Below are positions 44,200-52,809 of a stretch of DNA of 64,000 nt, one piece after another; the stretch's first letter is position 1, and each line of letters begins with the position of its first letter. Source of the stretch: Candidatus Gastranaerophilales bacterium (lineage in GTDB: Bacteria > Cyanobacteriota > Vampirovibrionia > Gastranaerophilales > Gastranaerophilaceae). The DNA is taken from positions 1-64,000 of the forward strand of contig CANQLG010000005.1 of assembly GCA_947624645.1 (NCBI GenBank), in the 5' to 3' direction. A model generated the notes under the pieces. It ran no database searches. It was not told the origin of the DNA and was given only the letters and a program-made list of their open reading frames with translations. A program made the translations under genes and the position numbers.

Positions 44200-44265
44200 A
44201 TTTTTACCTTCCGGAATAATCTTTAATAAAATTATATTATAAATTTACAATTAATGCCAGTATTT

Positions 44266-44339
44266 TGTGCCCGATGGGAGTTGAACCCACATCTAAAGAC
44301 TTCGGAGATCTTTGCTCTATCCAGTTAAGCTACGGACAC
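44266..44339 (-). tRNA. tRNA-Arg (anticodon CCG)
   Basis: A 74-nt cloverleaf on the minus strand. It has an acceptor GTGTCCG/CGGGCAC with one G-T pair, D-arm GTAGCTTAACTGGATAGAG and an anticodon stem around the loop CTCCGAA (anticodon CCG). The T-arm is ATGGG/CCCAT-type with the TTCAACT loop, and the discriminator is A. CCA is not encoded. Confidence 0.93.
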
Positions 44340-44369
44340 AAGCGTTATATTTATTATATTTATAAAAAA

Positions 44370-46289: not shown

Positions 46290-47162
46290 ATGAGAATTCC
46301 CCCTGTTATTAATTTTAAAAATTCTTTTTCCCATAATATGAAAAAAAACTCTGACAAAGTTTCTTTTAAAAGTGTTTATGTAGAAGATATAGTTGATTTG
46401 GGAAGTGTTTCAGAAAATACTACTCCTCCTAAGTTTTTAAAAAAAGACGCACTTTTATTAAATGAAATAGCTCAAGAATATCCTAATCAGGATTGTTTTA
46501 TACGTAAAGGTTATGCAGGTTTGCCAAGATTAGAATATAGAGAACGACCTCCGGAAGTTCAAGTATTTACGGAAACACTTGCCAAACAATTTAAGACCTC
46601 TATTGATCCCAATGACAGTGAATATCCCGTTGAACCGTTATTGTTATACGCAGATTCAAGATTAAACAGATTTATCGGTATGACTTCATTTATATCTTTG
46701 AACCCGTCATTACCATATACGGTAAAAGTAGGGTTTGAACTTCATAAAAAGTTGATTGAAAAAAAATATCAAATTATGGATGTTGTTGGTAAGTCTGATA
46801 ATTTAAATTTAGGTGAAGAAACTCTTATACAAAAAGCACATAAAGCAATTGAAGATGTTGAAACAGCCGTAACAAGATATTTACTGGAAGCATCCTATGC
46901 GGCATTAACGGATAGAGCTTCGGCAAGTCAGATATATGCATCTAATTATCCTAAAGTTCAGTCAAGGTTAGATGCAAAAAGAAGATTAGATTTAATAACC
47001 AGTATAGCAAATCGTCCGGAGTTGGATGTTGAAGCTATGAAAAAAAATAAAATTGATATTTGTGATTTAGCGGTTAAAAATTATCCGAATACGGAAGAAA
47101 ATAAAGCCAGAATAGAAGAACTATCCGAATATATGGCTCAAAACGGAATTGTAATAGGATAA
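46290..47162 (+). CDS. Orphan hypothetical protein with N-terminal FK motifs
   Basis: The ATG at 46290 has an AAGGAG site; the frame to 46257 has none. The product is 290 residues starting MRIPPVINFKNSF, with a second motif VSFKSVYVED at 24-33. There is no signal peptide or membrane helix. The body is mainly helical, with a charged segment around 180-240. No known family is recognised. It is convergent with rnpB, whose 3' end abuts the stop codon. Related N-terminal signatures occur in the proteins at 1384 and 45413. Confidence 0.68.
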   Translation: MRIPPVINFKNSFSHNMKKNSDKVSFKSVYVEDIVDLGSVSENTTPPKFLKKDALLLNEIAQEYPNQDCFIRKGYAGLPRLEYRERPPEVQVFTETLAKQFKTSIDPNDSEYPVEPLLLYADSRLNRFIGMTSFISLNPSLPYTVKVGFELHKKLIEKKYQIMDVVGKSDNLNLGEETLIQKAHKAIEDVETAVTRYLLEASYAALTDRASASQIYASNYPKVQSRLDAKRRLDLITSIANRPELDVEAMKKNKIDICDLAVKNYPNTEENKARIEELSEYMAQNGIVIG

Positions 47163-47494
47163 AAAGAGCAGATCATAAGCCGGATTCTGTTTCTAAACAA
47201 TCATCTGTCTTGGCATTAAGTTGCCCTAATGCTCGTTGCGATTTTTCAAAAGACGGCGGGTCACCTTAACCTTTTTGTCAATCTTGCACCCGAACGGAGT
47301 TTACCGAGCAGGTATTTCTCAATACCTCTGGTAGTCTTTTACACTACCGTTGCACCTGAACCTTATAGGTTGTTTACTTTTCTGTGGCACTTGTCCTAAA
47401 GTCACCTTCGGCGGATGTTATCCGTCGTTCTGCCCTTGGGTGTCCGGACTTTCCTCATATAATTTCTTATACGCGATTGTTCGTCTGCTCTTTT
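47163..47494 (-). ncRNA. rnpB: RNase P RNA, bacterial class A
   Basis: The minus strand carries the diagnostic class A elements. These are a 5' P1 helix AGAGCAGAC pairing with GATCTGCTCT at the 3' end, the conserved GAGGAAAGTCCGGAC near the 5' end, CAGAACGACGGATAAC, the AGGTGACTTTAGGACAAGTGCCACAG region, and the 3' conserved ACAGAATCCGGCTTAT. The length is about 330 nt. It is the catalytic RNA that matures tRNA 5' ends. The T run after P1 (CTCTTTTTAT) probably terminates it. The boundaries are within a few bases. Confidence 0.95.
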
Positions 47495-47510: not shown

Positions 47511-48290
47511 TTACATATCTTTAAACTTATCAATAATTTCTTTTGGTAATTTAACGTTTTGCATCGACATTTGAAATTTTTTTATTTCTGCGAGTTTTTT
47601 TTGCTCTTCTTCCAAATCACGTTTGGGTTTTTTCAATTGTTTTAGAGTTCTTTCAAATTCTGATTCGGCATTACCTGATTCTATATGCATTATTATATCA
47701 TCTATATTAGAGTAATGAGTAGAATATATTTCGTTCAGGCTCTTAGCACTTGAACCGTACGGCAGATTATATAACCATAACAGTGATGCTATATCCCTTT
47801 TTGATAAGTTTACTACCCCGTATTGATGAGGGGTATACATTATATCTTCGGGATTATTTGAATGCCCAAGACCCAGTGCGTGCCCGATTTCGTGTAAAAT
47901 TGTATGATATACTTCATTTTCATCCATATATTTTCTGTGAATAATACCGTCAGATATACCTATTGAAACTTCTGCCGAATATAATCTTGATTCTTTATCA
48001 TAATTAAATGTGCAGTTTCCTAAAGATTTTCTGTCCACTCTTCGCCATTCAACATTCATTTGTGACTCATTCATTGTGTTCACAAGATAAAAAGATATTT
48101 TGCCTGCACTTACACTCTCCCAAGTATTTAATGCTTCTATGACCATATTTATATATATATATCTGTCGGCTTCCGATAATGAATACCAACTGCAAGGCGC
48201 AATATATACGGGCATGGGAAAACACTGTTCGGGCCATCTTATAAGACAGCCTTTTTTTAAATTTTCATTTAAATATGTATACCTGTGCAT
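47511..48290 (-). CDS. Matrixin-like zinc metalloprotease
   Basis: A 259-residue metzincin. I use the ATG at 48290, right after the stop of the upstream zinc-protein gene; the longer frame runs antisense-like through that gene. The active site is HTILHEIGHALGLGHSNNPEDIMY, the HExxHxxGxxH zinc motif followed by the Met-turn (IMY) of matrixins. The front half (GCLIRWPEQCFPMPVYIAP, then VIEALNTWESVSAGKISF) fits the matrixin fold. The C-terminal 70 residues are charged and helical. No signal peptide is visible, so either the enzyme stays in the cytoplasm or export is non-classical. Confidence 0.85.
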   Translation of the reverse strand: MHRYTYLNENLKKGCLIRWPEQCFPMPVYIAPCSWYSLSEADRYIYINMVIEALNTWESVSAGKISFYLVNTMNESQMNVEWRRVDRKSLGNCTFNYDKESRLYSAEVSIGISDGIIHRKYMDENEVYHTILHEIGHALGLGHSNNPEDIMYTPHQYGVVNLSKRDIASLLWLYNLPYGSSAKSLNEIYSTHYSNIDDIIMHIESGNAESEFERTLKQLKKPKRDLEEEQKKLAEIKKFQMSMQNVKLPKEIIDKFKDM

Positions 48291-48294
48291 ATTA

Positions 48295-48615
48295 TTAATT
48301 CGTTTCTCTTTTTTCTTGCTGTTTAATGTACTCGCACATTTCTTCAAGTCGTGTGTCTTCCATTGCATTTATCAGGTCATTTGCTGTTTTAAATTTACCC
48401 AGTGCAAATCCGGTTTCTGCCAAAAGTACGCAGTCATTACACAGTCTGTATTTGCCGTATTGTATAGAGCCTGCCGGTGACTTCGTTTTCCCGCAGCAAG
48501 AACATTCAAACTCTTTGTTTGCTAAAGACGGATCTTCTTCTAAATCATCCAGCCGCATTTGCTCGACTACCGCCTGCATATCTTTTATTATTTTTAATTG
48601 TTCTTCTTTATCCAT
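48295..48615 (-). CDS. Small four-cysteine zinc-ribbon-like protein
   Basis: A 106-residue protein with an acidic helical N-terminus (MDKEEQLKIIKDMQAVVEQM) and a central CSCCGKTKSPAGSIQYGKYRLCNDC. That is a C-x-C-C and C-x-x-C zinc-binding pattern, close to but not identical with the ClpX-type zinc domain. A helical C-terminus follows. It is four bases upstream of the matrixin gene in the same direction. The pair may be functionally linked, for example an adaptor with a protease. Function unknown. Confidence 0.7.
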   Translation of the reverse strand: MDKEEQLKIIKDMQAVVEQMRLDDLEEDPSLANKEFECSCCGKTKSPAGSIQYGKYRLCNDCVLLAETGFALGKFKTANDLINAMEDTRLEEMCEYIKQQEKRETN

Positions 48616-50039: not shown

Positions 50040-50453
50040 ATGAATGTTTCTGCGGTTGGCTTTTTGTTCCAAACAAGAATGAAAAGTAATGGTTTTTACG
50101 GTAATAATTATACTTGCGTTATACACAAAATGAAACAAGACGGCAATTTTACAAGAAATTATATAACTTCTCCTTTAATAAAAGAAACTAAAACCCATGT
50201 TGTCTCCCCTGAAGCTGCCGAAGCTGATGTTTTATTATCTTTGTTAGCTATTACCGATAAAAAGAATAAGGCAACCAAGTTTATTGGTGCTACCGTTAAA
50301 GATGGAGTGAAAGAAACTGAAATCCATTCTTTAATTTCTGATAAATTATATGCAGTCAGGACAAAAGATGATGCAGGAAAAAATCATTTCCGTATTATGG
50401 GAAGAAAGAAAACTAAAAGTTTACTTTCAAGAAACCTTAATTTAAATGCTTGA
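50040..50453 (+). CDS. Orphan hypothetical protein
   Basis: A 137-residue basic protein with no signal peptide, membrane helix or known motif. The first 35 residues are unusual (MNVSAVGFLFQTRMKSNGFYGNNY), and the rest is beta/helical mixed with a basic C-terminus (GRKKTKSLLSRNLNLNA). An AAGGAAGG ribosome site and a near-consensus promoter (49988-50016) suggest strong expression. It is convergent with ccdA, and the two ends overlap by 12 bases. Function unknown, likely lineage-specific. Confidence 0.7.
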   Translation: MNVSAVGFLFQTRMKSNGFYGNNYTCVIHKMKQDGNFTRNYITSPLIKETKTHVVSPEAAEADVLLSLLAITDKKNKATKFIGATVKDGVKETEIHSLISDKLYAVRTKDDAGKNHFRIMGRKKTKSLLSRNLNLNA

Positions 50454-51152
50454 AAATATGGAATAGTATATATAACATCCTGTAAGAATAAGCAATATAC
50501 CGCTAATCTTCATTAAAATTGAAGTATATTTTGCGAGTGCACTCATATGCTTTAGAGTAGAAGTGAATAAAGCAAAAAATATCACTATTATGCATTGACC
50601 TAATGCAAAGCAAAATAATAATGCTATTGAAAACAATATGTTGGATGATATTGTTGCGACAGCCATAATTGCGGCTAAAATCGGAGAAGAACAAGGGCTT
50701 GATGCCAAGGCAAAAAAAGCTCCCACTAAAAACGGGAATATAAATAAATTTCCGCCCCTGTTTTGGGGCATCTTTTTTATTATTGACGGAAATTGTATTT
50801 CTATTACTCCAAGTAAATTTAATCCTAATATTACTATTACCGATGCAAATATTAAAATTACTATCGGTGAAGCTACGGATGTAAAAGCCCTGCCCGTCAG
50901 AGCACATATTATTCCTATTATGCTTAATATTAATGATAATCCAAACGAAAAAGAAAGCATTTGTATAAATAGTTTTTTGTTGCTCTCTTTTGAGTATCCT
51001 CCAACATATCCGATTATTAGAGGCAATATACCTAAACTGCAAGGTGTCAGTGATGCCAAAATCCCTGATAAAAATGCTATACCAAGCAATATTGGGTATA
51101 TGTAATTATTGTTTGCAGAATAGAGAGAAAATGCCTGAACCAAATTATCCAT
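50442..51152 (-). CDS. ccdA: CcdA/DsbD-type thiol-disulfide membrane transporter
   Basis: A 236-residue protein with about six transmembrane helices. The two reducing cysteines are in SLTPCSLGILPLIIGY (first helix) and SSPCSSPILAAIM (fourth helix), as in CcdA. It carries reducing equivalents from cytoplasmic thioredoxin to the outside of the inner membrane. The start overlaps the stop of the adjacent thioredoxin-like gene by eight bases, with a GAGGAAG ribosome site. It pairs with that protein, its likely extracytoplasmic partner. Confidence 0.9.
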   Translation of the reverse strand: MDNLVQAFSLYSANNNYIYPILLGIAFLSGILASLTPCSLGILPLIIGYVGGYSKESNKKLFIQMLSFSFGLSLILSIIGIICALTGRAFTSVASPIVILIFASVIVILGLNLLGVIEIQFPSIIKKMPQNRGGNLFIFPFLVGAFFALASSPCSSPILAAIMAVATISSNILFSIALLFCFALGQCIIVIFFALFTSTLKHMSALAKYTSILMKISGILLILTGCYIYYSIFSSI

Positions 51153-51546
51153 TAATTGCTTCCTCTAGCTCATTTATAAGCTCTTCTTTCGGGATGAATC
51201 CTTCGATTTTATTTATTTGATTTCCGCTTCTATCCAGAAATATCATTGTCGGCACAAGAGTTACCTGATATTTTTTTATTGCATTTTGTATATTTCTGTC
51301 TTTGGCTAAAGCATTGTATCCTATAAAATTTATTTTATCCTCATAAGTCGGTTGAACTTCATTTAATACTGCTTTTAACTTCTTGCAATCTGCACACATA
51401 TTTGAAGTAAATGTTATTAGTGTTGGGTTATCGTTTACTTTTGCTATTGCACTGAAATTTTCGGAATTTTTACTCATTATCAGATATATACTGACGGGAA
51501 GTATTAGTATTAATACCATCGTTATAATGTTTTTCATATTTCTCAT
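51145..51546 (-). CDS. Membrane-anchored thioredoxin-like protein
   Basis: A 133-residue protein with an N-terminal membrane anchor or uncleaved signal (IITMVLILILPVSIYLIM) and a thioredoxin-fold domain. The redox site is TSNMCADCKKLKAVL (CADC). The cis-proline segment is VTLVPTMIFLDRSG and the fold end is INKIEGFIPKEEL. It is coupled to ccdA by an eight-base overlap, so it probably receives electrons from CcdA and reduces disulfides outside the inner membrane. The VKOR-DsbA protein at 10541 supplies the oxidising side. Confidence 0.9.
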   Translation of the reverse strand: MRNMKNIITMVLILILPVSIYLIMSKNSENFSAIAKVNDNPTLITFTSNMCADCKKLKAVLNEVQPTYEDKINFIGYNALAKDRNIQNAIKKYQVTLVPTMIFLDRSGNQINKIEGFIPKEELINELEEAING

Positions 51547-51616
51547 GTTTTTTCCTCCTATGATTAAACATTACATCTTCAAAGTATAAACTAAATTCTC
51601 TATATGGGTATACTTG

Positions 51617-51787
51617 TTATATATCTTCAGGTAAATATAATTCAATATTATTAAGTTTATCTCTTATTTCATTATAATTTAGACATCCCGTTGTTACACA
51701 TTGATATTCTCTTACAATATTAATAATATCATTTGCATTTAATCTGATATTTCTTCTGCCGAATTCGTTTTCTAAAATTTTTGCCAT
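51617..51787 (-). CDS. 56-residue protein with a Cys-x4-Cys pair
   Basis: This short gene has an ATG at 51787 preceded by a strong CAGGAGGAAATT ribosome site and ends with TAA at 51617-51619. The product begins MAKILENEFGRRNIRLNAND, continues with IINIVREYQCVTTGC and ends IELYLPEDI. It is mainly amphipathic helix with cysteines at 30 and 35 and an acidic C-terminus. I know no family. It lies 70 bases upstream of the thioredoxin-ccdA pair on the same strand and is divergent from a radical SAM gene 164 bases away. It could be a redox partner, a small regulator or a modified peptide; none is shown. Confidence 0.7.
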   Translation of the reverse strand: MAKILENEFGRRNIRLNANDIINIVREYQCVTTGCLNYNEIRDKLNNIELYLPEDI

Positions 51788-51951
51788 AATTTCCTCCTGT
51801 ATTTTTATATTCGGAAATTATTTATTTATATTTAATAAAATCATCTTTGTGTATTATTTATTTCCCTTATGGTTATATACATATGTCTAATTTATTACGC
51901 AAATTTTAAGTGCTATTAGTTATTCTGAAGAATTGGTAAGAGGATTTTTTT

Positions 51952-52809
51952 ATGAATAAAACAATTATTAAAGCACCTTGTGTAAACATGTCGAAACTGG
52001 AATCTTTATTTATTGAAATGACAAATCAAAATTGTAATTTAAGATGTAAATATTGCTATATTGATTTTAAAGACAAAAAAATCAAAGATTTTATTCCAAT
52101 TGATAAAATAAAACAGGCATTATGCACAATTGATAAAAATGAACTTCAATATATACATCTAACCGGAGCAGAACCTATGCTGCATCCTGACTTTAATCAT
52201 ATTTTAAGATTATGCCTAAAATATTCTTCTGTTGTTATTCATACTAATGCACTTAATATTAATGATAAAAAAGCGAGATTTTTAAAAAAAGTTGAAGAAG
52301 AAAATAATTTGGGCAATGAAATTATTTTTATGATTAGTATTGATCATTATCTTGAGAAAGAAAATGATTTACAACGAGGCAGAGGAGCATACAGAAAAGC
52401 TGTGCATGCTATCCAAAGTCTTATTAAATATGATTTTAATCCTATTTTATCAATAGTGAATTATTTAAATATTAATGAAAATGAATTGAAATCCGAGTTT
52501 CAAGATTTATGTTCATCAATAAATTTTGAAACATCGGATATTAATTTTAAAATAATACCTTTAATGAATAAGAATTGTTCTTGGGAAATTTCAGCTGATA
52601 CTGATTTTGAGAATTTAAATACAGAATGTTCAAAAAGCAGAACATTAACCGTAAACGGTGTATTTACCTGTCCCCTATTATCTTGTGATAACAGGGGAAA
52701 ATGCGGAAGTGATTTTACTGATTATTCTAAGCGAAGCTATTTAGAAACACAGTATTGTTCCCAGTGTATAAAATATAATAAATCTTTATTCTCATTAGAT
52801 ATTGTATAA
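51952..52809 (+). CDS. Radical SAM protein with cysteine-rich C-terminus
   Basis: A 285-residue radical SAM enzyme. The cluster motif is CNLRCKYC (Cys-x3-Cys-x2-Cys) at about residues 27-34, followed by YIHLTGAEPMLHPDF with the SAM-binding segment. The C-terminal 75 residues hold seven cysteines, ending CPLLSCDNRGKCGSD and QYCSQC, suggesting at least one auxiliary Fe-S cluster of the SPASM/Twitch kind. An AGAGGA ribosome site precedes the ATG. Such proteins modify peptides or small molecules. The divergent neighbour is the 56-residue cysteine protein, a possible but unproven partner. Confidence 0.85.
   Translation: MNKTIIKAPCVNMSKLESLFIEMTNQNCNLRCKYCYIDFKDKKIKDFIPIDKIKQALCTIDKNELQYIHLTGAEPMLHPDFNHILRLCLKYSSVVIHTNALNINDKKARFLKKVEEENNLGNEIIFMISIDHYLEKENDLQRGRGAYRKAVHAIQSLIKYDFNPILSIVNYLNINENELKSEFQDLCSSINFETSDINFKIIPLMNKNCSWEISADTDFENLNTECSKSRTLTVNGVFTCPLLSCDNRGKCGSDFTDYSKRSYLETQYCSQCIKYNKSLFSLDIV

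Follow-up and report, generated by a model that had tools for sequence, protein, structure and literature searches.

The window analyzed here is a 64,000-nucleotide stretch of contig CANQLG010000005.1 (GenBank assembly GCA_947624645.1) from a member of Candidatus Gastranaerophilales, common uncultured gut relatives of cyanobacteria. On its minus strand it encodes a CcdA protein of 236 aa (50442-51152) and a membrane-anchored thioredoxin-fold protein of 133 aa (51145-51546) with the active site CADC, and the two genes overlap, as a first-pass annotation made from the sequence alone had reported; the overlap is 8 nt. Upstream on the same strand lies a gene for a 56-residue soluble protein (51617-51787), here called sp56, and the earlier description of it as a 56-codon gene with a strong ribosome site and cysteines at positions 30 and 35 is borne out in full, with an ATG start preceded by AGGAGG. 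A radical SAM gene of 285 aa (51952-52809) runs on the plus strand and diverges from sp56 across a 164-bp intergenic control region (51788-51951). Homologous loci come almost entirely from records that likewise carry the name Gastranaerophilales (Melainabacteria), including Avigastranaerophilus and Scatousia, and we found nothing in the open-access literature on a ccdA-thioredoxin-sp56-radical SAM locus. One locus labelled Brachyspira (L195, ONYB01000006.1) has an sp56 of the Gastranaerophilales type and probably derives from a mislabelled metagenome bin.

CcdA matches the DsbD_TM family of membrane electron carriers (Pfam, 8.2e-22), has seven predicted hydrophobic segments with cysteines in TPCS and SPCS, and has an orthologue in 72 of the 74 genomes of the order that were sampled. 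The thioredoxin (Pfam Thioredoxin, 4.2e-14) has one N-terminal hydrophobic segment that serves as its membrane anchor, and its CxxC domain presumably lies on the outer side of the membrane. A DsbD_TM-type carrier with paired cysteines next to a thioredoxin fold with a CxxC motif, the latter with this presumed outward placement, is the composition of a CcdA/thioredoxin reductive pathway, and the pair resembles the ResA/CcsX/Etrx-type CcdA systems in that a carrier of this family overlaps a CxxC thioredoxin anchored by a single N-terminal segment. Unlike in those systems, ccdA and the thioredoxin gene were not seen next to any cytochrome c maturation gene here.

The radical SAM enzyme

The enzyme matches the radical SAM family (Pfam, 3.6e-16) and belongs to the radical SAM superfamily by its CX3CX2C motif (C28/C32/C35) and (β/α) barrel, with fold matches to the same effect. 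Its model resembles BlsE (VIA Z 16.1) and SkfB (Z 16.0), and the structural matches include the peptide maturases SkfB and SuiB. The first-pass annotation had credited the enzyme with a seven-cysteine C-terminus, and seven cysteines are indeed present after residue 205 (C209, C226, C240, C245, C251, C269, and C272), but only four of these, C226, C240, C269, and C272, are invariant in 60/60 sequences together with C28, C32, and C35. The resulting C-terminal pattern is CX9GX3C-28-CX2C. The SPASM motif reads CX9-15GX4C-gap-CX2CX5CX3C-gap-C (PMC6231123), and we rejected assignment to this seven-cysteine class, the enzyme having only four invariant C-terminal cysteines and no cysteine after C272. 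The four invariant cysteines come in the right order for a twitch domain, but CX9GX3C is one residue short of the CX9-15GX4C element (PMC6231123). With this proviso, the cysteine pattern and the structural model fit a putative twitch-type enzyme with a single auxiliary cluster.

In its CX3CX2C motif, its barrel, and its C-terminal CX9GX3C-gap-CX2C with four predicted ligands, the enzyme is like the twitch and SPASM proteins BlsE, SkfB, BtrN, and MoaA. It differs from the known families in scoring below every NCBIfam cut-off (the best being the Rv1681 family, at 75.6 bits against 380), in lacking an N-terminal RRE, since the model begins at the radical core, and in being confined to Gastranaerophilales among the genomes sampled. 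Three samples bear on its distribution: 52/58 genomes of the order in the first, 57/60 in the second, and, in the third, 62/62 genomes of the family against 0/84 outside. Nearly all sampled Gastranaerophilales genomes carry one copy of it, and beyond the order the matches were weak ones at superfamily level. The enzyme would form an order-restricted twitch subfamily.

The known substrates of twitch enzymes include both peptides and small molecules, so the fold does not reveal the substrate of this one. A search for a neighboring gene that might reveal the substrate gave no candidate, the enzyme's neighbors in other families being pilus-type (PilM/PilO-like) or unrelated genes. In loci L085-L103, from families f2-f4, the twitch radical SAM gene and PilM/PilO-like pilus genes are transcribed toward each other, and at L095 a single genome (G053) has two twitch radical SAM copies, oppositely oriented and separated by about 2 kb.

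The sp56 family

A single copy of sp56 was found in 33/35 genomes of the window's genus and in 47/58 related genomes, and the gene occurs in at least 10 families of the class, among them f10 and f51, where a profile search recovered it with E values of 1e-11 to 4e-16. A strong ribosome site precedes the gene in nearly all homologues, and dN/dS lies between 0.02 and 0.22 in 12 sequence pairs, the only ones with a finite dS. sp56 is a genuine, old gene under purifying selection and not a chance open reading frame. Conservation of the small frame in relatives, near thioredoxin or radical SAM genes, was the test on which the first-pass annotation had staked its proposal, and the frame passes it: in several genera, homologues adjoin the thioredoxin-ccdA genes and the gene of the radical SAM enzyme. 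In 77 Cyanobacteriia genomes we found no sp56 using a profile that included outgroup members, an absence that is no more than suggestive, because the class-level positives were scored with a related profile and there was no positive control in Cyanobacteriia. In one 94%-complete genus member (G005), sp56, the radical SAM gene, and ccdA are all missing, through joint loss or an assembly gap.

Sequence profiles from Pfam, NCBIfam, PHROGs, and PDB gave no convincing match to sp56; weak matches (T4-type Dam at E 0.07, DUF7801, and others) were treated as chance, and a phage origin was rejected, there being no match among 50,697 phage records or viral contigs. It is a previously undescribed small protein family, and with the radical SAM enzyme it makes two lineage-defining Gastranaerophilales genes, neither of which is a family in Pfam or NCBIfam.

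The AlphaFold model of sp56 (pLDDT 82) has its elements in the order strand-strand-helix-helix, a β-hairpin followed by two helices of which the second is short, with Cys30 and Cys35 in the loop between the helices. Fold searches returned nothing significant (Foldseek best E 2.7; VIA Z 3.5) and no match pointing to DNA binding, though a missing fold match is no proof of a new fold. Neither a signal peptide nor a membrane helix is predicted, and the protein is acidic, with a pI of 4.9 in this genome and a median of 5.6. Conservation extends along the full length with both ends included, the conserved residues being M1-A2, R11, R12, D20, Q29, L45, P53, and E54.

Gene neighborhoods and the intergenic block

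Within the genus, the divergent sp56-enzyme pair was found in 33/33 loci, spaced by about 160-180 bp except at one locus (346 bp). In 28 of the 33, the thioredoxin and ccdA genes lie downstream of sp56 in the same orientation, two of these loci having a 1-kb insert. The divergent pair is also kept in three other genera (g30, g39, and g41), and g41 retains thioredoxin-ccdA as well. A different part of the arrangement, sp56 followed by thioredoxin-ccdA with no adjacent enzyme, characterizes the Scatousia-like genera g18, g20, g22, g24, g26, g27, and g28 (in g22, 2/3 genomes), often then with ribH, murQ, and gpsA. In all, sp56 lies directly upstream of thioredoxin-ccdA in nine genera, and none of the other genes flanking the locus in the window is retained in the genera that keep this linkage.

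Elsewhere the neighbors change with the lineage. Thioredoxin-ccdA lies about 3 kb from sp56 in f4; in part of f1 the neighbor is thioredoxin-ccdA or the twitch enzyme, and in 14 of the sampled f1 genera sp56 and ccdA are not linked. In f3 and f7 sp56 neighbors an AI-2E-type transporter or a large radical SAM gene, and in f10 and f51 it diverges from rsmH, with leuS adjoining in f10. The enzyme occurs without sp56 in g34, g35, g38, g40, g43, and family f6, and sp56 occurs without an enzyme orthologue in the f10 genomes; each being found alone, neither partner is obligate. No universal genomic partner of sp56 emerged, as rsmH, thioredoxin-ccdA, and the twitch enzyme each cover part of the tree. 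The neighborhood is a mosaic, and the locus appears to join three separately conserved units.

The rsmH gene (mraW), usually the first gene of the division cluster, lies about 140-200 nt upstream of sp56 in the f10 and f51 loci (L207, L208, L209, L210, and L211), and ftsZ lies about 3 kb from sp56 in two f7 loci (L034 and L037). A link between sp56 and cell division genes is possible.

The strongest rival to the regulatory or adaptor role that we propose below draws directly on this variation. It holds that sp56 is a housekeeping protein unrelated to either neighbor and that the gene order at the locus was simply inherited; shared neighborhoods can indeed persist by common descent with no functional link. 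The changing neighbors and the cases of separation from ccdA count in favor of this explanation. Against it, both linkages of sp56 have outlasted strong divergence, at identities of 44-60% for the enzyme and 45-58% for ccdA, while all other flanking genes were exchanged, and the divergent pair has also kept a shared intergenic block, described next. We regard mere inheritance of the order as possible but doubtful. As sp56 and the enzyme have been shown to be real, old, and partly coupled, they are concrete targets for further work.

The conserved block, AAATTAGACATATGTATATAAC, occupies positions 51872-51893 on the minus strand, about 103 nt upstream of sp56, and contains the near-dyad TTAnACA-N2-TGTnTAA. 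Across 35 genus loci it is conserved as AAATTAGACAgttGTATAaAAT, about 101-134 nt before sp56 and inside the intergenic gap, in the form AAATTAGACA-N3-GTATA-N-AAT. With up to 4 substitutions allowed, it was also found in 12/17 loci (L104-L124) from the four genera that have the divergent pair; one of these 12 comes from another member of the window's genus. No other locus tested, sp56 and the enzyme not being adjacent there, has the block. The sole exact match in the genome is the window copy; three other matches have two mismatches each and are no more than a reversed control pattern yields.

The near-dyad itself, with at most 2 mismatches, is present in 32/35 genus loci against about 2.4 expected in shuffles, a control that is not independent because the near-dyad had first been recognized in the alignment and only then tested. 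It is not present upstream of enzyme copies that are unlinked to sp56, and the exact full-consensus dyad does not recur elsewhere in the genome, which was a weak search since the window copy itself has one mismatch. The intergenic region gave no Rfam match to a structured RNA at gathering thresholds. Part of the near-dyad may simply be a -35 element, and since it was chosen after alignment and overlaps that possible -35, we treat its role as an operator only as a hypothesis.

Loop cysteines and the possible role of sp56

Among 103 sp56 sequences, Cys30 occurs in that of the window only, the Cys30/Cys35 pair is private to this genome, and 14 of the 35 genus sequences have no cysteine at all. 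With this, the main reason for pursuing sp56 as a redox protein or a RiPP precursor is gone. The loop is nevertheless unusual: 13.6% of residues 30-37 are cysteine, compared with 0.33% in the rest of the protein, an enrichment of about 40-fold, at least one loop cysteine is present in 70/103 sequences, and a vicinal CCYEH (Cys 36-37) is kept in 35/42 other Gastranaerophilaceae sequences. The positions drift (30, 31-38) and no single one is conserved, a pattern suggesting that the inter-helix loop prefers cysteine with its place not fixed, and given this recurrence the loop may have some thiol role.

One such role would be that of a thiol or metal sensor: the loop cysteines would respond to oxidants or to metal by switching a target in the cytosol, and the window's genus would be losing this function. 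The enrichment and the vicinal pair are consistent with this. The drift in position is not, nor is the absence of cysteine from g41 and most f10 members in addition to the 14 genus sequences. The presence of cysteine also does not track linkage to thioredoxin-ccdA: the sp56 of g30 and f3 has cysteine but is unlinked, whereas that of g41 and many g1 members is linked but has none. We consider a sensor of this kind unlikely.

The first-pass annotation had offered three roles for the small protein, and none of them fares well. That sp56 is a redox substrate or an electron carrier of the thioredoxin-CcdA pathway would accord with its place directly upstream of those genes, yet this is very improbable given a private cysteine pair, many orthologues devoid of cysteine, and a topology in which the anchored thioredoxin and sp56, with neither signal peptide nor membrane helix, would by the standard arrangement sit on opposite sides of the membrane. 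A role as a cluster chaperone finds no support for the first of these reasons and because sp56 and the enzyme each occur alone. There is likewise very little likelihood that sp56 is a RiPP precursor modified by the adjacent enzyme: it is a short frame that diverges from the gene of a twitch enzyme resembling SkfB and SuiB in structure, and the linkage is invariant in the genus, but sp56 is not divided into leader and core, its fold and both of its ends being conserved, its cysteine positions drift where modified residues would be conserved, the enzyme has no RRE, sp56 and the enzyme do not consistently co-occur (the enzyme is without sp56 in six genera or families), and neither a transporter nor a protease adjoins the pair. 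The private pair and the mosaic neighborhood thus make both a dedicated redox substrate and a RiPP precursor unlikely.

We therefore favor a reading in which sp56, its cysteine pair not being conserved and its neighbors varying by lineage, probably acts on its own as a small regulator or adaptor in a locus of three units, and we give this best explanation a probability of roughly one half. CcdA and the membrane-anchored thioredoxin would form an ordinary pathway conveying reducing power through the membrane to disulfides outside the cytoplasm, and the second unit would be the twitch-type radical SAM enzyme, single-copy nearly throughout the order as sampled. The third, sp56, would be a small soluble cytosolic protein, probably dimeric, that works through its conserved fold and surface and not through Cys30 and Cys35. 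In this genus it would be expressed with thioredoxin-ccdA and would share its divergent control region and near-dyad with the radical SAM gene. More tentative is the regulatory step itself, in which the near-dyad block might act as an operator bound by sp56 or by a partner. Against it stand the acidic pI of sp56 and the lack of any fold match suggestive of DNA binding; moreover, loci in which sp56 and the enzyme are apart do not have the block, and sp56 would have to use different sites in them.

A known protein with which sp56 may be compared is Haloferax CdrS, a small ribbon-helix-helix regulator of 61 aa. The two are alike in size, and the model of sp56 likewise places two helices after a strand; division-cluster genes are found in the vicinity of some sp56 genes (rsmH in f10/f51, ftsZ in f7). 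The conserved near-dyad close to the sp56 gene would be a candidate for the palindromic operator that a ribbon-helix-helix regulator binds. sp56 differs from CdrS in its two-strand hairpin, its short second helix, its lack of a fold match, and its acidic pI, that of CdrS being 9.5. The further proposal that sp56 represents a family of thiol-tunable, small-fold transcription factors of Vampirovibrionia that bind TTAnACA-N2-TGTnTAA is decidedly a long shot; if true, sp56 would set expression of the order-specific twitch enzyme together with that of the CcdA-thioredoxin pathway.

Other features of the window include a gene on the minus strand (47511-48368) for a protein, conserved in the genus, whose HEIGHALGLGH sequence is a zinc protease motif like that of matrixins, as well as a class A RNase P RNA (47160-47492, minus strand), a tRNA-Arg (44265-44340), and a tRNA-Glu (1201-1274).
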